A program made the position numbers and the translations under genes. This document shows, one piece after another, positions 2,415 to 57,610 of a DNA stretch of 64,000 nucleotides. The DNA is from Chitinophagaceae bacterium (GTDB taxonomy: Bacteria; Bacteroidota; Bacteroidia; Chitinophagales; Chitinophagaceae). Numbering within the stretch: the first letter of the stretch is position 1; each line of letters begins with the position of its first letter. Under the pieces are notes generated by a model. The model saw only the letters and a list, made by a program, of their open reading frames with translations. It was not told the DNA's origin and made no database searches. The stretch lies in the NCBI GenBank assembly GCA_019638615.1, contig JAHBTL010000003.1:124001-188000 (forward strand), given 5' to 3'.

Positions 2415-2504
2415 AAGGTATAGGGCATAAGGTGCAGGGTATGAGGTAAAACCACCTATGTACTCCATCTTCTTCCTTTCACCTTTCACCTTCTACCTTC
2501 TACC
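2415..2504. repeat. Period-7 intergenic array A1 (AAGGTRT-type words with an opposed arm)
   Basis: Five consecutive 7-bp words (AAGGTAT, AGGGCAT, AAGGTGC, AGGGTAT, GAGGTAA) occupy 2415-2449. After a short spacer, four words of the complementary type (TTTCACC twice, TTCTACC twice) occupy 2477-2504. The two arms could pair imperfectly in the transcript. The array starts 5 bp after the susD stop codon. Confidence 0.8.
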
Positions 2505-2521
2505 GTATAATCATTTGGAAG

Positions 2522-3799
2522 ATGCATATAAGAGTATTTGTTTTTTTTCTTTGTATAATTAGTTTCACTCCTAATACCTACACCCAAACCTTTAAAGCCG
2601 GTGCCGCAGTAAGGGTCATTACCCCTGACCCTTTACTGCCGGTTTCCGGGGGAATAGGAACTCCAAAGCCTGCCACTGTTAAACAGGGCGATCTGTTTGT
2701 TCGTGCGCTTGTGCTTGAGAAAGGCAATACAAGAGTGGCCATCGTGAACATAGATAATTTAGGATGGCCATCGGTGTTAGGTAATCAATCAAGAGCGCTT
2801 ATAAAAGGCATTCCTCCGGAAAATATATTGATCGGCGCCACCCATACGCACAGTGCTCCCGACGCGTATGGTTTTCCGAATGAAAAAGGAGAATCATTTG
2901 CCGACCTCAAATATCTTGACTGGTGTGTGCGGCAGGTAGCCGATGCTGTAAATGAGGCGCTGAAAAAGCTGGAACCTGCTTCACTGAAAATTGCGGTAGG
3001 GGAGGCCAAAGGCAAAATTGCTTATAACTATTATGCTCCCGATTTATACGATCCCCGCTGCGGGGTCATACAGGCTATAGCCACTGCCGGCAAAAATAAA
3101 GATAAGCCAATAGCTACCCTGGTAAACTATGCCATTCACCCGGAAGTGATAGGCTCCAAACAAGGCATCTTAAGTCCTGATTTATGCGGACCTTTGTACG
3201 ACAGGATAGAATCAAAAAGTGGAGGTATAGCTATTTTTATGAATGGAGCACAGGGGGGTATGGTAACTGCCGATACCCGTATTGATGAAAAAACAGAAGC
3301 CAACCATTGGGCAGAATGCGGAAGGATAGGCAATTTACTGGCTGATGAAGCGCTGCGTATCATTGCCGATGCTCCCGTTCAAACCAACCCTGCGTTGTTT
3401 TGTACCGCGCGCAGCATAAAATTTCCTATTGACTCGGATATCATGAAATATATTCTGAGTCATTCGCCGCTGAAGCTTGCAGGCGAAAATCCCAATACGG
3501 ATTATGCAGAAACACAGCTCAACCTGCTGAATATAGGAACCGCGCAGGTGCTTACTATTCCGGGAGAGGCGTTGCCTAATATCGGGTACTATGTAAAAAG
3601 GCATATGAAAACCAAGCACCCTTTTTTGTTTGGTTTAACCAACGATGCTTTTGGGTATATGTTGACTAAAGTGGATTTTAATAGCTTTAAAAGATATGAA
3701 TATGTCAGTCGAACCAGTTTGGGTGAAATGACCGGCGAACTGTATATAGAGCAGGCTTTACAACTGGTAAAGGACAGTCCTGCATCAGCGGGGTATTAG
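2522..3799 (+). CDS. Neutral/alkaline ceramidase N-terminal-domain hydrolase, secreted
   Basis: The 425-residue protein has a cleavable signal peptide (hydrophobic residues 4-16, then NTYTQ) and then matches the N-terminal domain of neutral ceramidases: FKAGAAVRVITPD near residue 25 and the zinc-site motif GATHTHSAPD, with His108 and His110 as probable ligands. Classical neutral ceramidases, which cleave the amide bond of ceramide, are about 650-750 residues long. This one contains essentially the catalytic domain alone, a common arrangement in Bacteroidota whose substrates are mostly untested. Its place after a SusC/SusD pair suggests it acts on something imported or processed by that system, but this is inference. 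The stop codon TAG runs directly into a period-7 repeat array. Confidence 0.85.
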   Translation: MHIRVFVFFLCIISFTPNTYTQTFKAGAAVRVITPDPLLPVSGGIGTPKPATVKQGDLFVRALVLEKGNTRVAIVNIDNLGWPSVLGNQSRALIKGIPPENILIGATHTHSAPDAYGFPNEKGESFADLKYLDWCVRQVADAVNEALKKLEPASLKIAVGEAKGKIAYNYYAPDLYDPRCGVIQAIATAGKNKDKPIATLVNYAIHPEVIGSKQGILSPDLCGPLYDRIESKSGGIAIFMNGAQGGMVTADTRIDEKTEANHWAECGRIGNLLADEALRIIADAPVQTNPALFCTARSIKFPIDSDIMKYILSHSPLKLAGENPNTDYAETQLNLLNIGTAQVLTIPGEALPNIGYYVKRHMKTKHPFLFGLTNDAFGYMLTKVDFNSFKRYEYVSRTSLGEMTGELYIEQALQLVKDSPASAGY

Positions 3800-4081
3800 T
3801 TTGTGGTTTATATTTTGTAGTTTATAGTTTCGGGTTATTTGAGATTTGAAATAAGGCTATCAATCAGCCTTAGCAATGGATAGTTAACGATGGAGAATGG
3901 ACAATGAGAAGAATCAATCATTGTCAACCGTCAATTCTCGATTGTGCATAGTTTGATGCATCAGTCTTCAGTTACCTGCGACGTAACCATAAACCAAAAA
4001 CCAGTGACCTGAAACCTGCGACTTGTAACTCATTGCCCAAAGCTGACGGCTGATAGCTGACAGCCACCAGCTAATACCTTA
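3799..4081. repeat. Period-7 composite array A2
   Basis: This array fills the gap between the ceramidase and PhoPQ-type genes. Its first word (GTTTGTG) begins at the final G of the stop codon, followed by GTTTATA, TTTTGTA, GTTTATA, GTTTCGG and so on in unbroken 7-bp phase to about 3854. Next come CAATGGA/GAATGGA words (about 3876-3907), their complements (TTGTCAA, CCGTCAA; about 3921-3950), AAACCNN/GAAACCT words (about 3972-4030) and GCTGACG/GCTGATA words (about 4040-4070). No coding potential or promoter was recognised. Confidence 0.8.
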
Positions 4082-4099
4082 ATAATTTAAAAAATACAA

Positions 4100-5437
4100 A
4101 TGAAAAGAGTTTTTGTAATTTTTGCCGTCCTCCTGTTTGCTTCCGCCTGTTTGTTTGCGCAGGTTACTCCTTCTACTGCATTGAAAAGCTATCTGAACAA
4201 TGGAGACAATACCTATAAATGGGAGTTAAAAGACAGCTATGATATTGGCAATGTAAAAGCCTATGCTTTATTACTGACTTCCCAGAAATGGAGGGAACAT
4301 ATCTGGACTCACCAGTTGACTTTACTCGTTCCCAAAGAAAATAAATACGATGGCGCCTTATTGTTTATAACAGGCGGATCAATAAAAGATGGACTGCCGA
4401 ACTGGAATGGACGTGACGACAAGTTCAATAAAAGCATCAGCGCGCTGGCAGAAAAAAACAGCGCTATTGTAGCAGTGCTTCGTCAAACACCCAATCAGCC
4501 ATTGTATGATGGTTTAACGGAAGATGCTTTGATTTCGTTTACACTGCATAATTTTAAAAAAGACGGCGATTATAGTTGGCCGTTATTATTTCCTATGGTA
4601 AAAAGCGCCGTAAAAGCAATGGATGCGGTGCAGGAGTTTTCTAAGCAGCAGTTAAATCATGCGATCAACAGGTTTGTGGTATCCGGTGCATCCAAGCGCG
4701 GTTGGACCACCTGGTTGACCGGCGCGAATGACAGCCGTGCGCAAGCCATAGCTCCCATGGTGATAGATGTATTGAATATGCCGGTGAGCCTTGACTACCA
4801 GATCAAAGCCCTGGGAGATTACAGCGTGCAGATTGAAGATTATGTAAGGCTGGGTATTCCGCAGGGAGCAAAAACAGAAAGTGGCGCAGCGGTTACTACC
4901 ATGGTAGATCCTTATTCGTACAGGGCAACGCTTACCATGCCTAAATTGATCTTTATGGGAACCAATGACGAGTATTGGGTGGTGGATAATATCAAAAATT
5001 ATCTGAATGATATACCAGGCAAAAACCTGTTGCATTATGTTCCTAATGCCGGGCACAATCTTGGCGATGGTAAGCAGGCTTTTGAAGCGCTCGGGGCGTT
5101 TTTTGGAGCTACACTCACCAATCATGCTTACCCCGAATGTTCCTGGACTACTTCGGTCAGCAAAAAGGGTATAAAACTAAAAATAAAGGCTACAAAAGAT
5201 GAGCTTACTGATGTAATTGTATGGCATGCAGATTCACCTGATACGGATTTTCGCAACGATAAATGGACCAGCTCGGATTTAAATATTTCCAATAAGAAAA
5301 AGCTCAAAATAACTGAATCGCTTCCAGCCAATGGCTACAGGGCATTTTATGTAGACCTGAAGTACAAAGATGTGAATGGCGGCACTTACACCGTGAGTAC
5401 CCGCGTATTTATGACGGACGATAAGAAGATTCTGTAA
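4100..5437 (+). CDS. PhoPQ-activated pathogenicity-related (PqaA-type) alpha/beta hydrolase, secreted
   Basis: The 445-residue protein has a signal peptide (residues 1-20, ending CLFAQ) and belongs to the PhoPQ_related alpha/beta-hydrolase family. A putative catalytic triad is visible: nucleophile Ser198 in SGASKRG, Asp290 in GTNDEYW and His319 in PNAGHN. The region SGASKRGWTTW followed by AIAPMVIDVLNM is diagnostic. The family is named after a PhoP/PhoQ-induced Salmonella gene; its enzymatic substrates are poorly defined. It probably acts in the periplasm or outside the cell. It follows the ceramidase-like gene and may share a transcript, although a 300-bp repeat array lies between. The TAA stop codon is the first three bases of the next array. 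Confidence 0.86.
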   Translation: MKRVFVIFAVLLFASACLFAQVTPSTALKSYLNNGDNTYKWELKDSYDIGNVKAYALLLTSQKWREHIWTHQLTLLVPKENKYDGALLFITGGSIKDGLPNWNGRDDKFNKSISALAEKNSAIVAVLRQTPNQPLYDGLTEDALISFTLHNFKKDGDYSWPLLFPMVKSAVKAMDAVQEFSKQQLNHAINRFVVSGASKRGWTTWLTGANDSRAQAIAPMVIDVLNMPVSLDYQIKALGDYSVQIEDYVRLGIPQGAKTESGAAVTTMVDPYSYRATLTMPKLIFMGTNDEYWVVDNIKNYLNDIPGKNLLHYVPNAGHNLGDGKQAFEALGAFFGATLTNHAYPECSWTTSVSKKGIKLKIKATKDELTDVIVWHADSPDTDFRNDKWTSSDLNISNKKKLKITESLPANGYRAFYVDLKYKDVNGGTYTVSTRVFMTDDKKIL

Positions 5438-5539
5438 GTTACAAGTTGCAGGTTGCAGGCTACAGGTTTGGATATTTGAAATTTGATATTTGAAATTGGA
5501 TTGCTGAAAGCTCATTTCAAATCTCAGATCTCAAATCCG
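5435..5539. repeat. Period-7 array A3, beginning at the stop codon
   Basis: Fifteen consecutive 7-bp words run without a phase slip. The first, TAAGTTA, contains the stop codon of the upstream gene; then follow CAAGTTG, CAGGTTG, CAGGCTA, CAGGTTT, four TGAWATT-like words, TGAAAGC, and finally the complementary type (TCATTTC, AAATCTC, AGATCTC, AAATCCG). The TGAAATT and AAATCTC halves can pair around a short loop, so the transcript may fold into a long imperfect hairpin. Confidence 0.85.
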
Positions 5540-5583
5540 CCATCCATCAGAAATTCCCTATCTTCCCGGTATAATATTTCTGT

Positions 5584-6357: not shown

Positions 6358-6381
6358 ATTACCTGCGGATGTACGGTTGTT

Positions 6382-8463: not shown

Positions 8464-11080
8464 GGTAAGAAAATATTGGTTTGTATTGGTTATTGCTTTG
8501 CTCGGTTGTTGTACGTTACAGGCAAGGCATATAACCGGCGGTGAGTTATCGTATATATATACCGGGTCTTCGGGCAATACTCACAGTTATCAGATCACAC
8601 TCAGACTATACCGCGACTGCTTTTCAACCGGCGCCCAGCTTGATCCTGCAGCAATGATCTCCATTTTTACAAAAAATGCTTCCGGCGCGTCTTCAAATGT
8701 CGAAAACTTTACCATTAATATGACTCGCCGGGAAACCCTGCGTTTGGAGGCTCCCGGAAAGTGCATTGATAATCCACCTGCAGTTTGTTATGAAGTAGGT
8801 GTGTATATTTTCACAGCCAACCTGCCTGCTACTCCCTATGGTTACACAATTACTTATCAACGATGTTGCCGTATAGAGAACATGTCGAATGTAAGTGCGT
8901 CGGGGCAAACAGGAGCTACTTATACGGCTGATATTCCTGGTAACATTGTTCTGGATGATGCTCCCAAAAACAGCAGTGCCGTTTATTCAACCAGGGATAC
9001 GGTGATCGTTTGTGAGGACAATTTTTTTATGTATGATTTCGGGGCTTTTGACAAAGACGGCGATTCGCTTTCTTATAATTTTGCCGCAGCGTATGTTGGA
9101 GGTTCTCCCGGAAACCCGCAGCCCGTTCCTGCCGGCCCTCCGTATACATCAGTGCCTTATTCATTCGGTTTTGGCGCTATGTCTCCTATGGGTGCCAATG
9201 TTACCATTGACAGAAAAACCGGGATGGTTTCAGGGGTAGCGCCTTCCGGTGGGATATATGTTGTTACAGTAGCCGTAAGCGAATACCGGAAAGGCATGCT
9301 CATTAATGTGCATCGTAAAGACATTCAGATCAAGGTGGCTTCCTGCTCAATCGCCGCCGCATCGCTGCCGCCTGAATATGTAAGCTGCGACAGCTTTACC
9401 GTGAATTTTCAGAACAGGAGCAGCAGTTCGCTGATCAGGACTTATTACTGGGATTTTGGAGTGGAAGGAAGAAACGATGATACGTCTACTGTGGCGCGTC
9501 CTTCATTTACGTTCCCCGATACGGGTGTTTACAGGGTGACGCTGGTTACTAACAGGGGAGAGGAGTGTTCAGATACGGCCCTTTCAATAGTTAAGGTATA
9601 CCCCGGGTTCTTCCCCGGATTTGTTTACAGCGAAGGATGCAAAGATGTACCGATCTTTTTTACTGATACTACCAAAACCCGTTATGGCTTTGTGGATACC
9701 TGGAGCTGGGATTTTGGCGATGGCATTTCTGTGAACGACACCTCTACCAGGCGGAACGCTCCTTATACGTATACATCTGCCGGTACCTATACCGTTGCGC
9801 TTACCGTAAGCAATAGCAAAGGCTGCAAAAGTACGGTTACTAATCAACTGGTGGTTCGGGACAAGCCTTTGTTGAGCGTTCCGCATGATACTTTAATGTG
9901 CGATGTGGATACAATATCGTTGGTGGCAAGCGGTCCGCTGGGAACCTATACCTGGTCGCCGGGTTATAATATCAGCGCATTGAGCGGCCCGGTAGTACAA
10001 ATAAGTCCGGATATTACTACTACGTATTCCGTAAGCCTTACCACAGTGCCGGGCTGCACATCCACAGATACTGTGCGGGTAAACGTGGTCAGTTTTGTAA
10101 CGCTCGATGCCGGTCCCGACTTTACCATGTGTCTTACCGATTCGGTTCAATTAAATCCCTTCAGTAACGGACTGAGATACTCCTGGGATCCGGTTTCCAC
10201 GTTAGACGATCCTTTTGTAAAACAACCCGTAGCTACGCCGGCGGACGCATTTACTACCTATACCGTTACGTCCTATATAGGAAAGTGCTTTGCCAGGGAT
10301 AATATCCGCATCCGGGCGGTGCCTTACCCTGATGCAAGGGTTTCAGGTGATACAGTAATTTGTTACGGTGAAAAGGTGCAGTTGTTCGCCGATGGGGGCG
10401 CCTATTACAGATGGTCTCCCGTAACCGGCATCAATAATTACACCGTTCCTGATCCGGTTGTTTCCCCCGGGGTAACAACAATATACACAGTGAGTGTTAC
10501 CGATACGCTGGGTTGCCCGAAACCTACGAACAGGGAGATTGAGGTAAGGGTGATTCCACCTGTACCAGCCTTTGCAGGAAATGATACAGTAGCTGTATTG
10601 GATCAGCCATTGCAATTGCAGGCCACCGGGGCTGAATTTTATAAATGGTCGCCGGGTTCATTTCTAAGCAATACTGATATAGCGGATCCTATTGCCACTT
10701 TTGTTTCGGATGTGGCAGACAATGTTACTTATTCTGTAAAAGTGAGCACCCCTGAAGGATGTTTTGCATACGATACAGTGTCGATAAGAATTTTCAGAAC
10801 CGCGCCTGATATATTTGTAGCTACTGCCTTTACACCCAATAATGACGGGCTGAATGATTATTTCCGGGCAATGCCGGTAGGCATTCAACAGTTTGATTAC
10901 CTGAAAATTTACAATCGCTGGGGCCAACTCATGTTCTCCACTTCAGATTCTGAAGAAGGCTGGGATGGAAAATACAAAGGAGTAGAACAGGCAAGCGATA
11001 CATTTGTATGGACTGTAAAAGGTACTGATTATCTTGGTCGGACTATTCTTAAAAAAGGCACGATGGTGTTGATACGTTGA
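8456..11080 (+). CDS. PKD-domain protein with C-terminal CHU_C (gliding/T9SS type B) sorting domain
   Basis: The 874-residue exported protein has a signal peptide (residues 6-23, then ARHITGGELSY, a start typical of large T9SS cargo). Immunoglobulin-like modules follow. PKD-type repeats are seen around residues 300-385 (YYWDFG) and 385-470 (SWDFGDG), then several similar beta modules (TYTWSPGYN, YRWSPVTG, YKWSPGS). The last roughly 90 residues form a gliding-motility-associated C-terminal domain: AFTPNNDGLNDYF, IYNRWGQLMF, WDGKYKG, YVWTVKG-like and the closing KGTMVLIR. Such domains direct export by the type IX system and attachment at the cell surface. The role is probably structural or adhesive. 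A repeat array begins one base after the stop codon. Confidence 0.92.
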   Translation: MPEVRKYWFVLVIALLGCCTLQARHITGGELSYIYTGSSGNTHSYQITLRLYRDCFSTGAQLDPAAMISIFTKNASGASSNVENFTINMTRRETLRLEAPGKCIDNPPAVCYEVGVYIFTANLPATPYGYTITYQRCCRIENMSNVSASGQTGATYTADIPGNIVLDDAPKNSSAVYSTRDTVIVCEDNFFMYDFGAFDKDGDSLSYNFAAAYVGGSPGNPQPVPAGPPYTSVPYSFGFGAMSPMGANVTIDRKTGMVSGVAPSGGIYVVTVAVSEYRKGMLINVHRKDIQIKVASCSIAAASLPPEYVSCDSFTVNFQNRSSSSLIRTYYWDFGVEGRNDDTSTVARPSFTFPDTGVYRVTLVTNRGEECSDTALSIVKVYPGFFPGFVYSEGCKDVPIFFTDTTKTRYGFVDTWSWDFGDGISVNDTSTRRNAPYTYTSAGTYTVALTVSNSKGCKSTVTNQLVVRDKPLLSVPHDTLMCDVDTISLVASGPLGTYTWSPGYNISALSGPVVQISPDITTTYSVSLTTVPGCTSTDTVRVNVVSFVTLDAGPDFTMCLTDSVQLNPFSNGLRYSWDPVSTLDDPFVKQPVATPADAFTTYTVTSYIGKCFARDNIRIRAVPYPDARVSGDTVICYGEKVQLFADGGAYYRWSPVTGINNYTVPDPVVSPGVTTIYTVSVTDTLGCPKPTNREIEVRVIPPVPAFAGNDTVAVLDQPLQLQATGAEFYKWSPGSFLSNTDIADPIATFVSDVADNVTYSVKVSTPEGCFAYDTVSIRIFRTAPDIFVATAFTPNNDGLNDYFRAMPVGIQQFDYLKIYNRWGQLMFSTSDSEEGWDGKYKGVEQASDTFVWTVKGTDYLGRTILKKGTMVLIR

Positions 11081-11081
11081 G

Positions 11082-11242
11082 GTAAGATAGTAAGACAGGT
11101 AAGATGGGTAAGACCGTAAGACAGGTAAGAGGGTAGAAGCACAAAAATCCTCTCGCATTCATCTCTTACAGTTTTGCAATCTTACGGTCTTGCAACCTTA
11201 CAATCTTACAATCTTACGGTTTACTTTCTTACAGTCTTGCAC
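11082..11242. repeat. Inverted intergenic array A4 with 8-9 bp period (GTAAGAY words)
   Basis: Six GTAAGAY words with 1-2 bp spacers occupy 11082-11130. The opposite arm at 11164-11242 is made of near-perfect octamers such as TCTTACAG, TCTTGCAA and TCTTACGG. The two arms are reverse complements of each other and flank a loop of about 33 bp. The array begins directly after the stop of the CHU_C protein. It is the only array here whose period is 8 rather than 7. Confidence 0.8.
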
Positions 11243-11347
11243 TCTCTCTTACATGTTTTCCATTTCTCCGCGTAACTTTACTGTGTTAATCTCACGTACC
11301 TGGGCAGCCAGTGCAGGACATTTTATAATTAGCATAACAGCAGTATC

Positions 11348-16334: not shown

Positions 16335-17852
16335 TTAGTATCTTACTTTGAAAGCTACACGCCTGTTTTTAGCACGTCCGGCTTCTGTATTATTGTCTGC
16401 AATTGGATGATCAGAGCCGAATCCTGAAGCAGTCAATCTTTCCGGAGCGATGCCTTTATTTACCAGGTATATCTTAATTGCCAGGGCGCGTTTACCCGAT
16501 AATATCTGGTTGTGTCTAACTGCCCCCGTGTTATCGGTATGTCCTTCAATGTCCAGTTTTATTTCAGGGTTATCGAGAAGGATGGCGGCAATCCGGTCGA
16601 GCGATACGTTAGATGTTGCCTTGATATTATCGCTGTTTACATCAAACAGGATGCTGCGTGCCGCTTTGTTGATATCATCCACCATGTGTTTCTCTATCTC
16701 AGGACATCCGTTGTTCGCTTTTGGTCCAGGTTTAATAGGACATTTATCTTCATCGTCGTTTATACCGTCCATATCGGTATCTGGTGCAGGACATCCATTG
16801 TACTTGCTGCTGCCCACAATATCAGGGCATTTGTCTTCCTCATCATTTATACCATCTTTATCGGTGTCAGGTACAGGGCAGCCGTTGTATCTTGGGGAGC
16901 CGGCTGTATCCGGGCATTTGTCTTCTTCATCGCTTACACCATCTTTGTCTTGGTCGGGAGCAGGGCAGCCCAGCAATTTGCTGATACCGGCAACGTCGGG
17001 GCATTTATCCTGGATGTCAGGAATGCCATCTCCGTCTGTATCGGGACATCCTCCGGTTGCAGCAGTACCGTTTTCGCCATTGCATTTATCAATTTTATCA
17101 GGTACGCCGTCTCCATCGCTGTCTTTGGCCTCGGCTTTCAGTTTTGCCGATTTCGATTTGGTAACCCATACTACCAGCGTAGCGCCGTATGCCTGGTGTT
17201 TAAATGATCCGCCATATTCGGCAGTATAAAAATCAGATAAACCGCGGCTATAGTTTGCCGTTAGCATGATGCGGTCGTTGAAATCAAATCCCGCCAATGC
17301 ATTTACACCATAATCAAGTTTATTGTATTTATGAACATTGTCCCCGGTCGCTAATTTGTTATCATATGTCGTTAGCTCGCCTGAAGCATTATAATATTCG
17401 TATTTCGTTTTTTGGGTAAGATTGTAGCCGGCATACCCACCTGCACCCAGTATGAACCTTACTTTAGGAGATAATGGAATACGGTATACAAGATATACGG
17501 GAAGTTCTGCATAACCCAGCTTCCACGATGAAGTGATCGATGAGGTATCGGAATGAAATGATTTGGTAGAGTCGTACGCCTTTGCAAAATTTCTGCCTTT
17601 TGTTGTATACAATAAAGAAGCCTGAACAGCCCAGTTTGCTTTTTTATCAAGCGCGAACTCTGAATATAATCCACCATGGAAACCTGCGGAGGGTGTGTAA
17701 TAACTTTCAAACTGCTGGTTCCAGTTGGGTAAATTATTTTTTTCTGTTACCGCAGCGTTGTGTACACCACCACCCACTCCAAATTTAAATTGGGCGTATA
17801 TAGTATTGAAAAACAATAGATTGAACGATAGGAGTAGATATACTTTTTTCAT
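16335..17852 (-). CDS. OmpA-family outer-membrane protein with PorT-like barrel and five TSP3 repeats
   Basis: The 505-residue protein starts with a signal peptide (residues 1-20, YAQ). Residues of about 22-235 look like an outer-membrane beta-barrel of the PorT/OmpX type (FKFGVGGGV start, alternating aromatic strands). Five thrombospondin type 3 repeats follow, each D-x-D-x-DG-x-x-D-x-x-DKC, separated by NGCP/LGCP motifs; they bind calcium in known proteins. Residues of about 390-505 are a canonical OmpA domain (EGHTDNTG, GKRALAIK, NRRVAF) that anchors to peptidoglycan. It is a structural envelope protein. The repeats produce long antisense open frames, which I treat as artefacts. Confidence 0.93.
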   Translation of the reverse strand: MKKVYLLLSFNLLFFNTIYAQFKFGVGGGVHNAAVTEKNNLPNWNQQFESYYTPSAGFHGGLYSEFALDKKANWAVQASLLYTTKGRNFAKAYDSTKSFHSDTSSITSSWKLGYAELPVYLVYRIPLSPKVRFILGAGGYAGYNLTQKTKYEYYNASGELTTYDNKLATGDNVHKYNKLDYGVNALAGFDFNDRIMLTANYSRGLSDFYTAEYGGSFKHQAYGATLVVWVTKSKSAKLKAEAKDSDGDGVPDKIDKCNGENGTAATGGCPDTDGDGIPDIQDKCPDVAGISKLLGCPAPDQDKDGVSDEEDKCPDTAGSPRYNGCPVPDTDKDGINDEEDKCPDIVGSSKYNGCPAPDTDMDGINDDEDKCPIKPGPKANNGCPEIEKHMVDDINKAARSILFDVNSDNIKATSNVSLDRIAAILLDNPEIKLDIEGHTDNTGAVRHNQILSGKRALAIKIYLVNKGIAPERLTASGFGSDHPIADNNTEAGRAKNRRVAFKVRY

Positions 17853-17953
17853 ACTTACGGGTTAGTTCAAAGGATAATGATGACTTCTTTAATTCAAATA
17901 ACGCTTAACGGGCTGTAATATTATTGGCATTCAGTTGATTCTGTTAAAAGAGA

Positions 17954-18072
17954 TGTTGCAGGTTACAAGTTGCAGGTTTCAGGTTTGGGGTTTATGGTTT
18001 ATTGTTTCTGGTTCCGGGTTTAGTCCGACTATAAACAACAAACAGCAAACTTCAAACCGTTCAATCTCAAAT
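17954..18072. repeat. Period-7 inverted array A5
   Basis: Ten words of the GGTTTNN type run in perfect 7-bp phase from 17954 to 18023 (for example TGTTGCA, GGTTACA, GGTTTCA, GGTTTAT twice). After one spacer word come four complementary words (ATAAACA, ACAAACA, GCAAACT, TCAAACC) at 18031-18058, then AATCTCA-type words to 18072. The remainder of the spacer 17853-18155 shows nothing else recognisable. Confidence 0.85.
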
Positions 18073-18155
18073 TTCCAAAAAAAAATATTCACGTTTCACG
18101 GGGAACATGTGGATAACCTTTTCATTTATAACACTATTATAAGATTTGCTTCGAT

Positions 18156-18183
18156 AAAAACCCCGGCTTTTCAGACCCGGGGC
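18156..18183 (-). terminator. Intrinsic terminator of the aldehyde dehydrogenase gene
   Basis: CCCCGG (18161-18166) pairs with CCGGGG (18177-18182). On the minus strand five T residues follow. It lies 22 bp past the stop codon of the minus-strand ALDH gene. Confidence 0.85.
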
Positions 18184-18204
18184 TTCAGCGCAATGACAGT
18201 GGTT

Positions 18205-32574: not shown

Positions 32575-32699
32575 GGATTGCTGATTTGAAATTTAAGTCA
32601 ATCTTCTCTATACCTTATTCCTAACATTGTGAGATAATCGATATTAAATACCGGATTCTAATCTCAAATATCGAATCTCAAATTTCTAATTTCCCATTC
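32565..32699. repeat. Period-7 array A6 between two converging genes
   Basis: Words of the ATTGCTG/ATTTGAA type run over 32565-32597. Complementary words (ATTCTAA, TCTCAAA, TATCGAA, TCTCAAA, TTTCTAA) occupy about 32655-32695. The array covers the last codons of rlmB (plus) and the last codons and stop of the minus-strand gene at 32678, so it supplies both C-termini and both stop codons. Confidence 0.75.
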
Positions 32700-34302: not shown

Positions 34303-34637
34303 GATATGCTTTAGTTCAAAAGCGGTGCAAGTTACACTGTTTTTTTAATGCCTGCAACATGCACCTGCCGGATAAACGAAATTGGGTAGAATAAAGTTGC
34401 AGCAGTGTAAAAAAAGAGAGGGTTACAGGTTTCAGGTCGCAGGTTTCAGGTTTGTGCCTAAACTAATAAACCATAAACTACAAACAATAAATCTATTGAA
34501 ACCTGTAACATGCAACACGGTCTCCGGGAAAGTTTAATAAACGTTAAAATCTGTTATTTGCCGCAGTTTGAGCAATTTAGCTGATAAAAGTCATCCGTTC
34601 AGGTAAAAACAATGATACAATGCTTTGCTTTTTGAGC
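34303..34637. other. Intergenic region between divergent genes
   Basis: Apart from array A7 (34420-34519) and the ccmE -7 box just beyond its right end, I see no gene or recognisable site in these 335 bp. Confidence 0.5.
34420..34519. repeat. Period-7 inverted array A7
   Basis: Five words, GGGTTAC, AGGTTTC, AGGTCGC, AGGTTTC and AGGTTTG (34420-34454), are followed by ATAAACC, ATAAACT, ACAAACA, ATAAATC (34466-34493) and then GAAACCT, GTAACAT, GCAACAC (34498-34518). Within it GTTACAGGTTTCA and TGAAACCTGTAAC are exact reverse complements, giving a 13-bp stem. Confidence 0.85.
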
Positions 34638-34645
34638 TAATTTTG
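34638..34645 (+). promoter_or_regulatory. Bacteroidota-type -7 box for ccmE-ccmF
   Basis: TAATTTTG followed by C matches TAnnTTTG exactly, 29 bp before the ccmE start codon. Confidence 0.65.
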
Positions 34646-34674
34646 CGGGAGTTCATCCAAGGATTTTCCCTATC

Positions 34675-38277: not shown

Positions 38278-38281
38278 GGTG

Positions 38282-38802
38282 GGCTATGGGCTGTCAGCTA
38301 TGAGCCTTCAGCTATGGACGATGAGCTGTGAGGCAATGGACAGTGGATAGTTGACAGTGGAGAATGGAAGTGGGAAGATCACAAATGTTTATCGTTTGTG
38401 GTTTGTAGTTTATAGTCATCTCAAATCATAAATCAACAAATCATTATTAATTGCCAATCGTCCATTGTCAACTCTTTTTCTCTTGTCATTCTGAACGAAC
38501 AAATAGCTGCCGGATAAAGTGAAACATTTTCGTGAGCGAAGAATCTGCCGGGTGGATATGAGCTTTGGTCGACGAACTTTCAGCCGTTGACTGCAGGGGT
38601 GCAGGTTGTGGATGGGAGATTTGAGATTAGATATTTGAAATTGTAATGCAGTATCTAATATCTGTCATCTTGCTTTAGTTTCAGGTTGCAAGTTTCGAGT
38701 TACTGGTTTTGGGTTTGATGCTTGTGGTGCCGAAACTTTAAACCATAGACTTCAAACCATAAACAATAAATCCTTCAATCTCAAATTTCAAATCTCCAAT
38801 AC
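38282..38802. repeat. Period-7 composite array A8 (largest, about 520 bp)
   Basis: This fills the gap between the DUF4294 gene and prpD. Fourteen words from 38282 to 38379 stay in phase (GGCTATG, GGCTGTC, AGCTATG, then GGACAGT, GGATAGT, TGACAGT). Next come TTTGTGG/TTTATAG words (about 38385-38412), AAATCAT words, a TCCATTG remnant (38460), an unusual insert at 38485-38546, TTTGAGA words (about 38618-38640), TTTCAGG/TTTGATG words (about 38683-38730) and complementary ACCATAA, AATCTCA and AATTTCA words to 38802. No gene is supported inside. Confidence 0.8.
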
Positions 38803-38805
38803 CTC

Positions 38806-40257: not shown

Positions 40258-40258
40258 G

Positions 40259-40434
40259 ATTTGATATTTAAAATTTGAAATGATTGATGCTGTTGCAAGA
40301 TGTTTTAGAATATCTGGCCTTTTTAGTATTGAAAAGATTGGAAATAAAAAAAGATGCTGAAGATTTGTTATAAAACAGGATGTTCCTGGTAAAAATTTCA
40401 AATCTCAAATTTCAAATTTCAAATCTCAAATTTG
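40259..40434. repeat. Period-7 inverted array A9 inside the prp operon
   Basis: Three words (ATTTGAT, ATTTAAA, ATTTGAA) at 40259-40279 face six words of the AAATYTC type in perfect phase at 40393-40434. The second arm nearly touches the prpC stop codon; the first lies 2 bp upstream of the prpD start codon. The intervening bases 40280-40392 have no recognised function. Confidence 0.85.
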
Positions 40435-40438
40435 AGAT

Positions 40439-44083: not shown

Positions 44084-45214
44084 ATGTTGAAAGCTGGTAT
44101 ATTAGGAGGAGGACAATTGGGGCGTATGCTGTTACAGGCTGCAGCCAATTATCCTGTAGAAACATTTGTTCTTGAAAATGACCCGGACTGTCCTGCAGCG
44201 CATTTGTGTCATCATTTTGTGAAAGGAGACATCCGCAACTTTGATGATGTATACAATTTTGGAAGAGGGTTGGATGCATTGACTATAGAAATTGAATCGG
44301 TTAATGAAGATGCACTGGAAAAATTAGAGCAGGAAGGCGTAAAAGTATACCCGCGCCCGGCTACATTGCGCATCATAAAAAACAAAATAAGGCAAAAGGA
44401 ATTTTACACATCACACAGCATACGTACGGCGCCATTTGTAATTACGCAAACAAAAGACGAGCTGCTGGCACAGGAGCAGTTTTTGCCGGCTGTGCATAAA
44501 CTTGCAACCGGCGGGTACGATGGGAGAGGAGTGCAGGTGATCAATACAAAAGACGACCTTGACAAAGGTTTTAGTGAACCAGGTGTGCTGGAAAAGAAGA
44601 TCAGCCTTAATAAGGAAATTGCGATGATTGTAGCGGTAAACGATGCAGGACAGACTGCATTGTATCCACCGGTTGATATGGTGTTTGACCCGCTATTGAA
44701 CCTGCTCGATTACCAGATCAGCCCGGCTGATTTAACCGAAACGATATTATGGAAAGTAGAAGCCATTGCGCTGAAAGTGGTAAAAGAGCTGCAAAGTCCC
44801 GGTATTTTTGCCGTAGAGCTTTTTATTGATAAGGAGGGAGAAGTATATGTGAATGAAACTGCGCCCAGGGTGCACAACAGCGGACATCATACCATAGAAG
44901 CCAATTACAGCTCGCAGTTTGATATGTTGTGGCGTATTATACTTCGTTATCCGTTGGGGAACACGGATGCTATTTTACCAGGCGCCATCGTAAATCTTCT
45001 GGGTGAAGACAAGCACAGCGGTGATGCGGTATACGAAGGACTGGATGAAGTGTTGCGGCTGGACAATGTTTTTGTACATATTTATGGCAAACGCCAAACC
45101 AAACCCGGAAGGAAGATGGGACATGTTACCATTATCAACAAAGACAAGCAGGATCTGATCTATAAAAAAAACAGGATAAAGAGTTTGCTGAAAGTGGTAA
45201 GTGATAAGGTGTAG
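44084..45214 (+). CDS. purK: 5-(carboxyamino)imidazole ribonucleotide synthase
   Basis: PurK uses ATP and bicarbonate to carboxylate aminoimidazole ribonucleotide in purine synthesis. The 376-residue ATP-grasp protein begins with the family signature GILGGGQLGRMLLQAA (residues 5-20) and has LATGGYDGRGVQVI (ATP loop), FAVELFIDKEGEVYVNE and NETAPRVHNSGHHTIEA. The last codons (KV and stop) are encoded within the following repeat array, whose first word contains them. purE follows after a 170-bp spacer. Confidence 0.95.
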   Translation: MLKAGILGGGQLGRMLLQAAANYPVETFVLENDPDCPAAHLCHHFVKGDIRNFDDVYNFGRGLDALTIEIESVNEDALEKLEQEGVKVYPRPATLRIIKNKIRQKEFYTSHSIRTAPFVITQTKDELLAQEQFLPAVHKLATGGYDGRGVQVINTKDDLDKGFSEPGVLEKKISLNKEIAMIVAVNDAGQTALYPPVDMVFDPLLNLLDYQISPADLTETILWKVEAIALKVVKELQSPGIFAVELFIDKEGEVYVNETAPRVHNSGHHTIEANYSSQFDMLWRIILRYPLGNTDAILPGAIVNLLGEDKHSGDAVYEGLDEVLRLDNVFVHIYGKRQTKPGRKMGHVTIINKDKQDLIYKKNRIKSLLKVVSDKV

Positions 45215-45381
45215 GGTATAAGGTATAGGGTGTAAGGCCATTAATGAAAAAATGAAAAGCGCTTTGTGTAACACTGTGTCTTGGTGTCTTTGTGCCTGCC
45301 GGCATAGGCAGGGTTCAAAATCAAAATTCAGGATTGAGCACCATGACCGATCTTGAATCTCAAATCTCAAATTTCAAATCA
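45206..45381. repeat. Period-7 array A10 between purK and purE
   Basis: AAGGTGT, AGGGTAT, AAGGTAT, AGGGTGT, AAGGCCA (45206-45240) begin inside the last codons of purK; the stop TAG is at 45212-45214. AAATCTC/AAATTTC words (about 45353-45381) end 3 bp before the purE start codon. The middle (45241-45352) is not repeat-like. Confidence 0.8.
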
Positions 45382-45384
45382 CAC

Positions 45385-45906
45385 ATGAACCCGATGGTTG
45401 GAATTATTATGGGCAGCGACAGCGACCTGAATGTAATGCAGGCCGCCGCCGATATACTGAAAGCGTTTGATATTCCTTTTGAACTGACAGTGGTATCGGC
45501 GCATCGAACTCCATTGCGCATGGTATCGTATGCCTCGGAAGCGCAGCAAAGAGGACTGAAAGTGATCATTGCCGGAGCCGGAGGGGCGGCGCATTTACCC
45601 GGCATGGTAGCTTCGCTTACTCCGTTACCTGTAATAGGTGTGCCCGTAAAATCATCCAATTCTATTGACGGCTGGGATTCTGTTTTATCCATACTGCAAA
45701 TGCCAAATGGTATACCCGTTGCAACGGTTGCCCTGAATGCTGCTAAAAACGCTGGCATACTCGCCGCTTCCATTATCGGCGCTTTTGATCCTGCCATTGG
45801 CAATAAAGTAGCCGCCTATAAAAAATCGCTGGAAGAAGAAGTTGTAAAAAAAGCAGGCAATCTTAAAAAGCAGGGCTGGAATAATTGTTTTGATAAAGAG
45901 GAATGA
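45385..45906 (+). CDS. purE: 5-(carboxyamino)imidazole ribonucleotide mutase
   Basis: PurE moves the carboxyl group made by PurK to carbon 4 of the imidazole ring. ATG 45385 gives the normal length of 173 residues; a longer frame from 45292 reads through repeat sequence (LESQISNFK) and is rejected. Signatures are [13 protein letters not shown] (residues 6-18), SAHRTP with catalytic His40 and [15 protein letters not shown]. It works in sequence with PurK, whose gene is upstream on the same strand. Confidence 0.97.
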
Positions 45907-46034
45907 GCGATTTCTGATTTGATATTTGAGATTTGAAATTAGATCAACCTGCTCTCCGCACCTTATTCCTTGCTCCCCTTCTTGTATGGTGACAGATATG
46001 AAATACTGCATTCCAATTTCAAATCTCCAATCCC
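45907..46034. repeat. Period-7 inverted array A11 between converging purE and argS
   Basis: TGATTTG, ATATTTG, AGATTTG, AAATTAG (about 45917-45944) face AATTTCA/AATCTCC words (about 46013-46031). The latter run to within a few bases of the argS stop codon. The arms could pair on either transcript and may serve as a shared terminator; there is no conventional GC-rich stem. Confidence 0.75.
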
Positions 46035-53170: not shown

Positions 53171-53177
53171 AGAAATT

Positions 53178-53951: not shown

Positions 53952-54025
53952 AGCAGAGAAATTTTATATGTATTTACATTCGATTTCGGCAGATGTTCTT
54001 ACCTTAATGCAAAATTTTAAAAACG

Positions 54026-55477
54026 ATGAGCCAAAAGTCAAAGTCAAAATCAAATGGTTCGCGCAGAAAATTCCTGCGTAATTCTTCCCTGGCCGCTGCA
54101 GGCTATTTTATAGTTCCCCGTCATGTGCTCGGTAAAGGATTTGTAGCGCCGAGCGATAAGCTGAATATTGCCGGCATTGGCGCCGGAGGTAAAGGAACAA
54201 GCGATCTTTCTTCGTTTGCCAAAAGCCCTAAAGTAAATATAGTGGCAATGTGCGATGTGGATGATCGCCAGGCGGTAAAATCAAGAGAGAATTTTCCGAA
54301 AGCAAACTATTATAAGGATTTCAGGGAGATGCTTGCCAAAGAGAAAAACAATATTGATGCGTGCTCTATTTCTACACCCGATCATACACATGCGGTTGCC
54401 ACTTTAGCGGCTATGCAATTAGGCAAACATGTGTATACTCAAAAACCCCTCACGCACGATATTTATGAAGCCCGTATTCTTGCGGAAGCTGCAAAAAAAT
54501 ACAAAGTGGTAACCCAAATGGGCAACCAGGGCGGTTCCGGCGATGGGGTAAGAAGAATGAAAGAATTATATGATGCGGGATTAATAGGTGATATTGTAGA
54601 GGCGCAGGCCTGGACCAACCGTCCTATTTGGCCGCAGGGTGTTGCAAAACCAACCGGCAATCACCCTATACCCGCTGAACTGGATTGGGATCTGTGGTTA
54701 GGTACTGCACCCAGGGAAGAATTCAACCCTGCATATCTTCCATTTAACTGGAGGGGATGGTGGAACTACGGTACCGGTGCATTGGGAGATATGGCCTGCC
54801 ATATCATGGATCCTATTTACCGCATATTGCCAATAGATTACCCATCTTCCGCTGAATGCAGCATCGCTAACCAGTGGAGCGGCATGAACCAGGAGTCAAA
54901 TTTCAGCGACAGTTGCCCTGTGGCTTCTATCATTCACCTGGAGTATCCCAGGAAAGATGGAAAAGGCACGTTGAAAGTTTCCTGGTACGATGGCGGTTTA
55001 TTGCCGAAAAGACCCGATGAATTAAAGCCTGAAGAGGATTTCGGTAACTGGGATGGCGGTGTATTGTTTATTGGAACAAAAGGTAAATTATTGGCCGACT
55101 GCTACGGCGCGAATCCACGATTATTACCATTGTCTAAAAACGAAAGTGCAAAAGCAGTAAAACAAACCATAGCACGTGTACCCAATGAAGATCACTACCT
55201 GCAATGGGTAAACGCATGTTTAGACGGATATGGAAAAGGCAAAACCAGCTCGCCATTTGAGTATGCCGGTCCGTTTACGGAAAGTATACTGATGGGTAAC
55301 CTGGCCATCCGAAGCGCTTTATACATTGATCCTACAGTTTCCGGCTGGGGCAAGAACAAATTTACCGGGCGTAAGAAACTGCTATGGGATGCCAGGAACA
55401 TGAAGATCACAAACTTTGATGAAGCCAACCAGTTCGTAAAACGTCAATACCGCGAAGGCTGGAACCTTACTTTATAA
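54026..55477 (+). CDS. Tat-exported Gfo/Idh/MocA family oxidoreductase
   Basis: The 483-residue protein carries a twin-arginine signal (SRRKFLRNSS at residues 12-21, then a moderately hydrophobic stretch), so it is folded with its cofactor before export to the periplasm. A Rossmann domain follows (LNIAGIGAGGKGTSDL, VAMCDVDD), then the family segment DACSISTPDHTHAVATLAAMQLGKHVYTQKPLTHD, where Lys in QKPL is the usual catalytic residue. Secreted members occur in many Bacteroidota near sugar-degradation loci and act on sugars or cyclitols. The substrate is unknown. A clear terminator follows. Confidence 0.92.
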   Translation: MSQKSKSKSNGSRRKFLRNSSLAAAGYFIVPRHVLGKGFVAPSDKLNIAGIGAGGKGTSDLSSFAKSPKVNIVAMCDVDDRQAVKSRENFPKANYYKDFREMLAKEKNNIDACSISTPDHTHAVATLAAMQLGKHVYTQKPLTHDIYEARILAEAAKKYKVVTQMGNQGGSGDGVRRMKELYDAGLIGDIVEAQAWTNRPIWPQGVAKPTGNHPIPAELDWDLWLGTAPREEFNPAYLPFNWRGWWNYGTGALGDMACHIMDPIYRILPIDYPSSAECSIANQWSGMNQESNFSDSCPVASIIHLEYPRKDGKGTLKVSWYDGGLLPKRPDELKPEEDFGNWDGGVLFIGTKGKLLADCYGANPRLLPLSKNESAKAVKQTIARVPNEDHYLQWVNACLDGYGKGKTSSPFEYAGPFTESILMGNLAIRSALYIDPTVSGWGKNKFTGRKKLLWDARNMKITNFDEANQFVKRQYREGWNLTL

Positions 55478-55499
55478 TAACCTGTTTTTTCATTTTTGT

Positions 55500-55533
55500 A
55501 ATGGGGCTGTGTAAAGCAGCTCCATTTTTATTT
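55500..55533 (+). terminator. Intrinsic terminator of the Gfo/Idh/MocA gene
   Basis: AATGGGGCTG (55500-55509) pairs with CAGCTCCATT (55517-55526), with one G-U pair, followed by TTTATTTT. It overlaps the end of the converging minus-strand gene. Confidence 0.88.
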
Positions 55534-56385
55534 TCCAACGGCCCATTTCAAAAAATCCGGTAACCGTTGCTGCCATGCTGCTGCATTGTTGGCAATTCCT
55601 TTTTCATATACGATGTCGCCTTCCGTGATAAATTTTTTGGCTGATAACAGTTCCACAAAACAGGTTGTGCTGTTCAGTATATGGTCTGCATCATCGTTGG
55701 GTAACGCTGTTGTGCCATTTTGCCCGGCATATATCCAGAACTGAAGGACGGGACGTTTGCGCGATGATTTTACTTTTTCATACATCATGCCATAGCATGC
55801 CGTATCGCTCTGGGTTCTATCTCCATCGGCAGTTCTGTTAAAAGCCCCGGAAAAAATGCCTGCCTTGCTTATTTTATCAGGATGATTCCAGGCTATATCC
55901 AGCGCGGACAATGCCCCGGCTCCAAACCCCGCCACTGTAACGGATTTAAATTTTCGTACCCCGGCTTTCTTTTTGGCGAACGGGTATAGCTCGTTATTAA
56001 AAAAGCTGTCGTAGTGATCAGCTTTTCCGCCTCTGCCATTATTCCCTTTTGTATCGGCAATTCCAAATTCTTCCTTCCGGTTTCCCGCATGGATGGCTAC
56101 CACTGCCAGCGGCTGTATTTGCCCGGCCTTGTATAAGCTGTCAATAACAGTTGTCAGTCTCAGGTTGGCTGATTGTTCTCCATCGTTCAATACCAGCAAA
56201 TTGACATCAGCTTTATCTCCTGGTATGGGGGTATGAATGATGGTGAGCTTAACATGGCGTTGCAGATGCCTGGAATACAATTCATCTGTTTGCTCCTGTA
56301 CTCCCTTTTTACAGGCTGTAAACAATAAGCCGAGCAAACAAAATTTAAGTATGGATGAAAACAGGGTATAAGGAGTGACTTTCAT
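55528..56385 (-). CDS. Esterase-D-like lipoprotein lacking the catalytic serine
   Basis: ATG 56385 (285 residues) is chosen; a longer frame to 56580 reads through repeat sequence. The protein has a lipoprotein signal (LLGLLFTAC, Cys25). Its mature part follows the putative-esterase (PF00756-type) fold: VNLLVLNDGEQSANLRLTTVIDSLY, PLAVVAIHAGNRKEEFG, FNNELYPFAKKKAG, VTVAGFGAGALSALDIAWNHPDKI. The nucleophile elbow, normally GxSxG, reads GFGAG: the serine position is glycine. SGAF and downstream segments are otherwise normal. It is probably an inactive or re-purposed family member on the outer membrane. Confidence 0.78.
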   Translation of the reverse strand: MKVTPYTLFSSILKFCLLGLLFTACKKGVQEQTDELYSRHLQRHVKLTIIHTPIPGDKADVNLLVLNDGEQSANLRLTTVIDSLYKAGQIQPLAVVAIHAGNRKEEFGIADTKGNNGRGGKADHYDSFFNNELYPFAKKKAGVRKFKSVTVAGFGAGALSALDIAWNHPDKISKAGIFSGAFNRTADGDRTQSDTACYGMMYEKVKSSRKRPVLQFWIYAGQNGTTALPNDDADHILNSTTCFVELLSAKKFITEGDIVYEKGIANNAAAWQQRLPDFLKWAVGK

Positions 56386-56435
56386 GAAGGGGCAGCTTTC
56401 GCTAAAGATAGAAAGAAAGGAGCTGACTGAAAAGA

Positions 56436-56547
56436 GTGGTTTGGGGTTTGGGGTTTGAAGTTTATAATTTATGGTATATCTCTTCATTCTCCATTTGTCA
56501 TTGTCCACTGACTGCTGAAAGCTGATAGCCGACGGCTCACAGCCCTC
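56436..56547. repeat. Period-7 array A12 upstream of the esterase-like gene
   Basis: Sixteen consecutive 7-bp words in a single phase: GTGGTTT, GGGGTTT twice, GAAGTTT, ATAATTT, ATGGTAT, ATCTCTT, CATTCTC, CATTTGT, CATTGTC, CACTGAC, TGCTGAA, AGCTGAT, AGCCGAC, GGCTCAC, AGCCCTC. It lies 5' of the minus-strand esterase-like gene and 3' of the Rpn remnant. Confidence 0.88.
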
Positions 56548-56553
56548 TGTGCC

Positions 56554-56582
56554 AAAAAAAATGCCCCGGATCCGGAGCATTT
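56554..56582 (-). terminator. Intrinsic terminator after the Rpn remnant
   Basis: AAATGC (56559-56564) pairs with GCATTT (56577-56582) and an inner CCGG pairs with CCGG. A run of A residues on the plus strand from 56554 gives a U-tract on the minus strand. Confidence 0.75.
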
Positions 56583-56602
56583 ACCTTTACATTTCAATAC
56601 GG

Positions 56603-57327
56603 TCATTTTTTCTTTTTCAATGAGGCGCGGACTTTTTTTATGAAGCTGACAGGCACTTCAGCTATATCGGCTGCCTGCTTATCTGAAAGACCTAACCTTA
56701 GTATCAGATTTTCAATGACATCCTGTTTCGCTTTTTCGATGCCTTTTTCGATGCCTTCTTCAATGCCTTTTTTTCGTCCTTTTTCTATATAAATGTCTAA
56801 TGTGCTCATGATCGTTTTCTTTATGGGTTCCGGTAGCGAATTTAATATATTTTCTTCTTTCAGATCACCCCTGCTGTATAAGTAAATGATAAAACCTTTT
56901 TGCAATTCTTTGGGGCCTGCTGCTGCCAATATCAATAAATTTACCGCTTGTCTTTGCCATGATACAGCAGCACAGGGATAACAAGCGACAGGGGTTCTTT
57001 GGCAGTCGCCTGCTTTTGCAGGGCAGAAAAAATATAACTGCCAATTTGTACCGGGGTGTATTTATCAGGGTAACTTTTATGTTCTATGAGCAGGCTTACC
57101 TTTACAGCGCCTTTGCCGTCCTTCCTGAGGCAGGAGTAAACAATATCTGACATGGTTTTCTTCAACTCCCCGGACAAATAAGTATCCGGCAGTTGTTCCA
57201 GGCTGGTAAAATCCAATTGCCTGCTGATAGCCGCGGGCAGGTAGTTTTTGAAATAATCTGACGCCATCTTTTTGTTAGATAAAATGCTGCGGATAAAATT
57301 GTCGTGTATGGAAGCATCGTTGCGCAC
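56603..57327 (-). pseudogene. Decayed Rpn-family (PD-(D/E)XK, Transposase_31-like) nuclease gene
   Basis: Two fragments lie head to tail in different frames. The first (57327 down to 56941, 128 residues) matches the N-terminus of Rpn recombination-promoting nucleases: HDNFIRSILSNKKMASDYFKNYLP, LSGELKKTMSDIVYSC, then the nuclease strand VSLLIEHKS and IPVLLYHGKDKR, where a stop follows. The second (56935 down to 56603, 110 residues) matches the family C-terminus, with the typical EKGIEEGIEKGIEK helix and a terminal PVSFIKKV segment. The middle, usually about 80-100 residues between the two, is missing. I read this as an internal deletion plus frameshift. Arrays A12 and A13 flank the gene on both sides. 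Confidence 0.8.
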
Positions 57328-57381
57328 CCTGTCGGATAACTTTTTAGCCCTGAAGATAATTATTTTCCTGTCAGAAGAAAA

Positions 57382-57610
57382 GGGTTACAGGTTGCAGGTT
57401 TCAAGTTATGGGTTAGGGGTTTATGGTTTGAGGTTTATCGTTTATGGTCACAACAATTTAAAACCACAAACCACAAACTACACACTATTAGCTGACTGCT
57501 GAAAGCTGACAGCAGGTTGCAAATTTATGGTTAATGGTTTGTGGTTTATAGTTGATCACTGTCCATTGTCAGCGATCCATTGTCCTTCGTCCATTGTCAA
57601 CTGCCACCTG
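57382..57610. repeat. Period-7 composite array A13 between the Rpn remnant and sucC
   Basis: Ten words in one phase (57382-57451: GGGTTAC, AGGTTGC, AGGTTTC, AAGTTAT, GGGTTAG, GGGTTTA, TGGTTTG, AGGTTTA, TCGTTTA, TGGTCAC) are followed by complementary ACAAACC, ACAAACT, ACACACT (57466-57486). Still in phase come ATTAGCT, GACTGCT, GAAAGCT, GACAGCA (57487-57514), then GGTTTATAG words, and last TCCATTG, TCAGCGA, TCCATTG, TCCTTCG, TCCATTG, TCAACTG (57562-57603). It covers most of the spacer 57328-57635. Confidence 0.88.

Follow-up and report, generated by a model that had tools for sequence, protein, structure and literature searches.

What process produces the arrays of 7-bp words that occupy spacers between the genes of a Chitinophagaceae bacterium? 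The question is raised by 64,000 nucleotides of this genome (GenBank assembly GCA_019638615.1, contig JAHBTL010000003.1, positions 124,001 to 188,000; hereafter the window), in which a sequence-only reading had noticed thirteen spacers made of degenerate heptamers. These arrays follow an ordering rule: G-rich words lie on the left of the spacer and their complements on the right, and the G-rich strand is usually directed away from the nearer gene. This polarity, a recurring composite junction, and changes of content at fixed sites go beyond what that reading had described.

The words fall into classes A (GTTTATG, GTTTGTG, GTTTGAG and similar), A' (GTTGCAG, GTTACAG), B (ATTTGAG/A), C (GCTATCAGC type), D (TGGACAG type) and E (AAGGTAT type). 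Throughout, + denotes the strand carrying these words as written, which is mostly G-rich, and - denotes the opposite strand. The host genome (labeled G000) comprises 7.18 Mb in 87 contigs; a type IX secretion sorting domain (TIGR04131) encoded at window positions 8882-11080 fits Bacteroidota. The nearest of 11 other congeneric species, judged by three proteins (99, 95, and 97% identity), is the sister species G002. Genes were called with our own codon-usage caller, not an established one, and a segment was counted as coding if gene calls covered >70% of it. The period scan covered 21 stretches (464 kb) of G000; its incidence figures are biased upward because 17 of the 20 stretches beyond the window contain matches to GGTTTNN x3. 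The stretches chosen without this pattern are L001, L009, L015, and the window, the last itself picked by the earlier reader. The word-class patterns were composed after the output of the period scan had been viewed, and the counts based on G/C skew are independent of them.

Lag-7 matching reached a P value of ≤0.01 against 300 dinucleotide shuffles in 11 of the 38 window spacers that are at least 60 bp long, as opposed to 1, 2, 1, and 1 of the 38 at lags 5, 6, 8, and 9 (P rounded to two places) and to 1 of 84 coding segments at lag 7. The five arrays for which the sequence-only reading had named coordinates have lag-7 matching of 0.58 to 0.73, with shuffle means of 0.26 to 0.32 (P = 0.001 each, 1,000 dinucleotide shuffles). 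Between genes, the matching at lags 7, 14, and 21 amounts to 0.317, 0.311, and 0.298; in coding sequence it is 0.251 at lag 7. Across the 464 kb, 86 segments were found at period 7, all but one of them intergenic, compared with 0 to 6 at every other period from 4 to 12 and with none at period 7 in a Markov-1 control. Word-class blocks numbered 163, against 10 chance blocks in one Markov-1 control set, and GGTTTNN x3 matched 52 times in the G000 genome (3 times for the reversed control). By gene arrangement, spacers holding arrays number 18 of 40 where the genes converge, 33 of 143 where they run in tandem, and 5 of 58 where they diverge. The arrays are real in that dinucleotide shuffles do not reproduce them, they are restricted to spacers, and their word classes turn up again at unlinked loci (464-kb scan, word listing), all of which upholds the description of a modular, degenerate, dispersed repeat. 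The claim of a strict 7-bp phase through a whole array does not stand: phase differences are spread over 0 to 6 at changes of class or strand, and the period of 7 holds only inside a block.

The order of blocks is far from random. Among 73 pairs of neighboring blocks in the G000 stretches, signed by word class, opposite signs occurred as + then - in 33 cases and as - then + in 4 (P = 1e-6), with 16 ++ and 20 -- pairs making up the remainder; signing by G/C skew, with word classes unused, gave 18:1 in G000. Blocks of + lie in the left half of the spacer in 52 of 65 cases in G000 and 22 of 27 in G002, and blocks of - in the right half in 50 of 68 and 18 of 27. The pattern-unselected stretches agree (+ left, 13 of 15; - right, 14 of 15), and spacers with blocks of a single sign obey the edge rule also (12:2 for + and 15:5 for -).

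When tandem spacers of G000 and G002 are read along the direction of transcription, + blocks lie on the stop side in a ratio of 49:5 and - blocks on the start side in a ratio of 35:14. The corresponding ratios in the convergent spacers of the two genomes are 23:8 for + and 19:9 for -, and + blocks follow the rule 10:1 in the divergent ones. Because tandem polarity is alike at the stop and start sides, the rule follows the spacer and not transcription, and the direction of transcription was rejected as its cause.

The same polarity occurs well outside the genus. A scan of GTDB contigs for GGTTTNN x4 yielded at least 115 loci, with titles naming Bacteroidota, cyanobacteria, Deltaproteobacteria, Planctomycetota, Patescibacteria, Clostridia, and others. 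This set was found through one word class, and only arrays with clear skew were used for polarity; among the loci listed, arrays detected de novo and signed by G/C skew ran + then - in 17 cases and - then + in 1 (17 loci informative). Six genomes from other genera were sampled as stretches: two cyanobacteria, one member of the Desulfobacterales, and three Bacteroidota, of which two are congeneric. Here the skew-based counts were 18 and 0, with + blocks 20 left and 6 right, - blocks 23 right and 6 left, and period 7 leading in each genome. The two skew sets overlap, L059 and L105 being in both and two of the six genomes being those of L034 and L108. The orientation rule applies to words unrelated to each other, at starts and stops alike, across Bacteroidota, cyanobacteria, one genome of the Desulfobacterales, and scattered loci elsewhere, and one shared rule of this breadth points to a common cause at the DNA level.

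In a sample of the phylum, GGTTTNN x4 matched in 46 of 395 genomes and 29 of 171 genera, the reversed control also matching in some genomes; among the nearest 38 genomes, GGTTTNN x3 counts range from 0 to 52 within the genus, and 3 of 26 others have 1 or 2 matches. Within the phylum sample, GGTTTNN x4 is most frequent, at 101 and 42 matches, in G149 and G172, two genomes of one genus with sizes of 2.4 to 2.6 Mb in which Ku was not found.

Arrays at different loci share not only words but their order. Between-locus alignments exceeded those of word-permuted arrays in every one of 20 permutations (80 pairs reached a score of ≥30, versus 21 to 37 after permutation). Of the word pairs combining A' with GTTTAT words, 24 have A' first and 3 have it second, although these pairs are not independent. 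A junction between B and A' blocks, ATTTGATGGCTGTT, matches 16 times in G000, 47 times in G002, and once each in G005 and G008, with none in the other eight genomes; its reversed control has no match in any of the 12. Thirty of the 65 matching loci were fetched, including 28 of the 63 from G000 and G002, and these 28 all read as B-like words, junction, and A' words, with the G005 and G008 loci differing. At L344, L354, and L356, a short palindrome, CCGCCACGGCGGA, lies within the B-word arms immediately ahead of the junction, seemingly inserted into the array.

One composite is dispersed over a greater length. Two G000 loci on different contigs, L333 (C1:354224) and L351 (C25:76844), have 280 bp in common at 88.6% identity, confined to the spacers and with unrelated flanks, and a dispersed repeat that is not built of heptads, TTGTCATTCTGAACGAACAAAT ... 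GTGAGCGAAGAATCT, travels within it. Judged from these alignments, composites have spread within the G000/G002 lineage, by either repair copying or transposition.

Arrays occur at the same spacers in the sister species, but their contents often differ, in the clearest cases in the middle only. Spacer 3800-4099 measures 300 bp in G000 and 150 bp in G002, and spacer 38278-38805 measures 528 and 126 bp; in spacer 17817-18204 the array is replaced with flanks conserved, and in spacer 56386-56602 the ends are similar and the middle different. Spacers 5438-5583 and 34303-34674 show little change. On G000 contig C34, two spacers, one aligned on both flanks and one on the left flank only, carry arrays that do not resemble those at the G002 junction loci. 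Two further pairs of G002 and G000 loci were found after the edge-versus-middle test described below and stand outside its counts: in L338/L345 the outer parts, including the junction, are near-identical around a middle of ~146 bp in G002 and ~25 bp in G000, and in L340/L005 B words are kept at both edges with the difference between them. Overall, the median matched fraction of orthologous spacers is 0.59 for 7 with arrays and 0.76 for 17 others, and the median length difference is 25 versus 4 bp; two of the 17, 11081-11347 (period 8) and 32575-32677 (B words), would be expected to blur rather than sharpen the contrast. Among the seven species retaining both genes that flank spacer 40258-40438, B-type words are present in G002, G004, G005, and G009 and absent from G001, G003, and G006, a comparison that leaves out G007, G008, and G011 (flank missing or unaligned) and G010 (no orthologue).

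We tentatively propose, as a quite possible but far from assured reading, that the arrays are intergenic slots rewritten by repair copying from other arrays, probably after central breaks. A slot would consist of two head-on arms, with mostly G-rich heptads running inward from the left gene and their complements running inward to the right gene. Its middle would break or become gapped, head-on repeats being plausible weak points; each G-rich 3' end would then anneal to heptads of another array and copy a stretch from it, and the two copied ends would be rejoined. Such a sequence of break, ectopic copying, and rejoining would give rise to the common vocabulary, word order, composites, and polarity, as well as to contents that change while sites and outer parts stay stable. 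We infer the central break, the ectopic donor, and the rejoining from these features. The data fit a process that proceeds from the middle of the spacer to the genes on either side, takes word runs from other arrays, and leaves the G-rich strand as the 3' end pointing inward, and the simplest such process is the repair of breaks or gaps with another array as template. The proposal leaves aside why the outward-reading strand is G-rich in many groups and how slots are born. Under a much wider version, which we regard as unlikely, bacteria of many phyla would have in common a hitherto undescribed process acting at DNA ends. It would lay or recopy G-rich heptads onto both 3' ends at intergenic breaks, the head-on arrays being its scars and the GGGAATC, GGGGAYT, and TAACTGA repeats its best-kept products.

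Several observations weigh against rewriting by repair copying. The - blocks of divergent spacers depart from the rule (6 right, 8 left), and 193 array-free spacers of G000 and G002 show a mild skew in the same sense, so that the polarity may in part be a general property of spacers. The contrast between edges and middles is weak (8 array versus 17 other spacers, one-sided P = 0.033) and includes opposite cases, such as spacer 5438, whose left quarter has a matched fraction of 0.42 and whose middle has 0.97. The 280-bp composite, which contains a non-heptad dispersed repeat, is equally compatible with transposition, and the 16-bp difference at 34421 could be slippage. In each of the three gene arrangements, the left 50 bp of the array-free spacers have a slight excess of G over C and the right 50 bp one of C over G.

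A doubtful but serious alternative is that the arrays are small nonautonomous mobile elements, resembling miniature inverted-repeat transposable elements (MITEs) or repetitive extragenic palindromes (REPs). On this view a transposase would insert copies of a directional unit, for example B - GATGGCTGTT - A' - A - loop - A- - C-, into new spacers, where they subsequently decay. The lineage-specific junction, with its 16 and 47 copies, the shared order, and the 280-bp composite between unrelated flanks would all be expected from it, as would the preference for convergent and tandem over divergent spacers and the location of the A' head mostly in one arm (12 left, 8 right, 2 both, and 4 neither of 26; P = 0.014). 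Yet the 28 junction loci have no constant ends and differ in which classes they contain and how the blocks are ordered, the orthologous sites compared, few in number, hold differing arrays with none filled versus empty, and the polarity persists with unrelated words in other groups. Counts of the Y1 transposase (PF01797), the only transposase searched, do not track the arrays (G007 has 9 matches and no GGTTTNN x3, and G004 has 5 and 51), and a Y1/RAYT transposase was rejected as the driver. Plain heptanucleotide slippage, generating long simple sequence repeats that later decay, is improbable, even though homogeneous heptad arrays occur elsewhere (L083), certain length changes resemble whole units, and in most genomes rich in long repeats, heptanucleotides outnumber every other class of them (Mrazek 2007, as quoted in PMC4679880). 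Adjacent GTT words are identical in only 9 of 216 cases, with 5.3% expected from random draws; neighboring words being no more alike than random, slippage alone is insufficient. Matching, moreover, barely drops from lag 7 to lag 14, and both the polarity and a vocabulary and order common to unlinked loci tell against slippage as a sole cause, the neutral origin that the sequence-only reading had offered as an alternative.

That reading had also suggested a role in RNA processing or termination. A selected function at gene ends, with head-on arms acting as hairpins that stop or insulate transcription or as sites for a heptad-reading protein, is rather unlikely, although the arrays are confined to spacers, are richest between convergent genes, persist as slots across species, and form more stable folds than their dinucleotide shuffles do (mean z, -1.67). 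Its difficulty is that the arms are not coadapted. In 15 zones with A+ and A- arms, own-locus arms score 12.6 and cross-locus arms 14.3 (P = 0.986), and in 50 zones the halves of one locus give a weaker fold than chimeras made across loci (-41.7 versus -43.3 kcal/mol; P of own being as strong, 0.95). The supposed self-complementary design is borne out only at the class level: opposite-strand blocks adjoin in 37 of the 73 neighboring pairs, but the arms of a single locus are not matched to each other, and snap-back copying or paired hairpin arms were rejected on this evidence. In addition, contents vary freely, polarity is equal at starts and stops, no Rfam model matches the window at its gathering score, and one array is separated from the gene at 56603 by a distinct terminator-like site, a hairpin with a T run (consensus match only) at 56559-56582 (-); the G002 alignment is gapped at this hairpin. 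Rho loading on C-rich arms was rejected as a general cause, since cyanobacteria, which are not known to carry Rho, obey the polarity rule. Very improbable, finally, is a telomere-like mechanism: G-rich heptads would be added to each 3' end at a break, and end joining would then give a head-on structure like that of telomere fusions. This mechanism predicts G strand left and C strand right irrespective of genes, and GGTTTNN x3 counts are higher in Ku-bearing congeners (52, 36, 3, 51, 19, 6, and 4) than in Ku-less ones (3, 0, 14, 2, and 0; two-sided P = 0.028), a correlation confounded by phylogeny and genome size. However, among 20 genomes that have such repeats, no Ku was found in 14, including 5 of the 11 with known completeness, and Ku end joining was rejected as a general cause despite the weak association within the genus. 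A short template would not be expected to give varied words and long shared order. The literature search found no telomerase-like bacterial enzyme; a search on interstitial telomeric-type repeats brought up mainly eukaryotic studies, and a term search of PMC7015867 gave nothing on heptamers.

Repair copying from other arrays remains our preferred reading, and the arrays of the window, detected by the period-7 scan unless other evidence is given, show the material on which it would act. Class E words (ACCTT type) lie at 2475-2509 (-) in the ++ spacer 2411-2521, where a shuffle test was also applied. Spacer 3800-4099 carries class A and then B words at its left edge (3799-3852, +) and A plus C words at its right edge (3985-4071, -), both also placed by the G002 alignment, and between them class D-like words on both strands (3853-3984, alignment) that are missing from G002. 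The array at 5436-5537, with A' then B words on + and B words on -, is mostly near-identical in G002 by alignment. At 17955-18020 (+), A' words give way to A words (GTTGCAG ... GTTTATG; word listing also), opposed by a right arm of A words at 18028-18057 (-); in the alignment, the array is wholly unlike that of G002 between conserved flanks. B words at 32657-32698 (-) occupy a convergent gene junction and extend into the end of the right gene. The A'/A words at 34421-34453 (+) and their G002 counterpart are distinguished by a 16-bp alignment gap, and the right arm of A words at 34459-34491 (-) is covered by the same alignment.

The 528-bp spacer (126 bp in G002 by alignment) holds C, D, and then A words in its left part (38280-38416, +), B, A', and A words at 38611-38725 (+; word listing also), and A plus B words at its right edge (38735-38800, -). 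B words occur at 40393-40438 (-), as recognized by comparing the locus with other species, at 45350-45386 (-), and at the left edge of a convergent spacer (45909-45943, +), and E words (AAGGTAT) at 45192-45237 (+) begin inside the end of gene 44084-45214. A left arm of A words (56438-56480, +) faces a right arm of D and then C words (56485-56545, -), the same place in G002 being aligned with an A'/A, A-, C- array. The last array spacer has A' then A words at 57383-57448 (+; word listing also), A then C words at 57461-57513 (-), and a second pair, A+ then D-, at 57524-57570.

Some neighboring features are of other kinds. Window positions 11081-11245 hold a period-8 (with 9) array, also head-on, with GGTAAGAC-type words on the left and CTTACAA-type words on the right; among the lags tested, 8 and 9 are significant and 7 is not. 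The TTGTCATTCTGAACGAACAAAT ... GTGAGCGAAGAATCT repeat is found within array-bearing spacers at window positions 38443-38550 and at L003, L005, L333, and L351. Another dispersed repeat, ending in CTTTGTGCCTGCCGGCATAGGCAGGGTTCAAAA, occurs at window positions 45253-45320 and at L003 8781-8848 with 84% identity. At 56603-57327 (-), two short neighboring open reading frames of the same orientation resemble fragments of one gene, and this region is largely without an aligned counterpart at the G002 locus.

Among known systems, the short tandemly repeated repetitive (STRR) sequences of cyanobacteria have near-identical adjacent units, attributed to slippage. REPs, the bacterial interspersed mosaic elements (BIMEs) that contain them, and MITEs are, like the present arrays, dispersed, confined to spacers, head-on, and sparse in divergent spacers; the present arrays differ in having no fixed ends that we could see, no link to Y1 counts, and arms built of heptads. 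Long simple sequence repeats, as far as the available accounts describe them, are likewise dominated by period 7, but slippage leaves their adjacent units near-identical, and here the units are unlike.

The claim that no described system resembles these arrays was overstated, since intergenic heptamers with the same orientation rule are reported in the available parts of PMC4692102 and PMC4679880. The former describes GGGAATC heptamers in Xanthomonas and GGGGA(T/C)T heptamers in Nostoc that are intergenic and lie nearer to the 5' neighboring open reading frame irrespective of its orientation, that are arranged as convergent pairs 70 times in one Xanthomonas genome and 75 times in another, and that vary in length and sequence at kept sites. 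The present arrays resemble them in their confinement to spacers, their convergent pairs, and a G-rich strand directed away from the nearer open reading frame, a likeness that is weak for - blocks in divergent spacers. They differ in that each of those genomes, as described there, has a single near-uniform word capable of forming quadruplexes, whereas here at least five degenerate classes are combined in composites, and the classes, judged from the words alone, mostly have GG or a single G and few runs of three. In the accessible text of PMC4679880, which mentions other heptamer repeats alongside, TAACTGA repeats are reported from Beggiatoaceae, cyanobacteria, and a few Bacteroidetes and are proposed to be translational sites. 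Of 14 sets in F. litoralis, 12 are forward upstream of starts and one is reverse after a stop, a placement that fits the outward rule, the outward word being TCAGTTA. These, too, are spacer heptamers, but of one exact word, with no class vocabulary or composites described in that text.

Searches for our exact word strings returned only papers unrelated by title, and in a literature search that most subscription journals lay outside, the orientation rule was nowhere stated as general. Earlier reports of heptamers have been piecemeal, with a separate role assigned in each, and the question of why long simple repeats in bacteria favor period 7 becomes testable by comparing strains. The Xanthomonas, Nostoc, and TAACTGA repeats fit the same polarity rule, of which the present arrays are a diversified variant.

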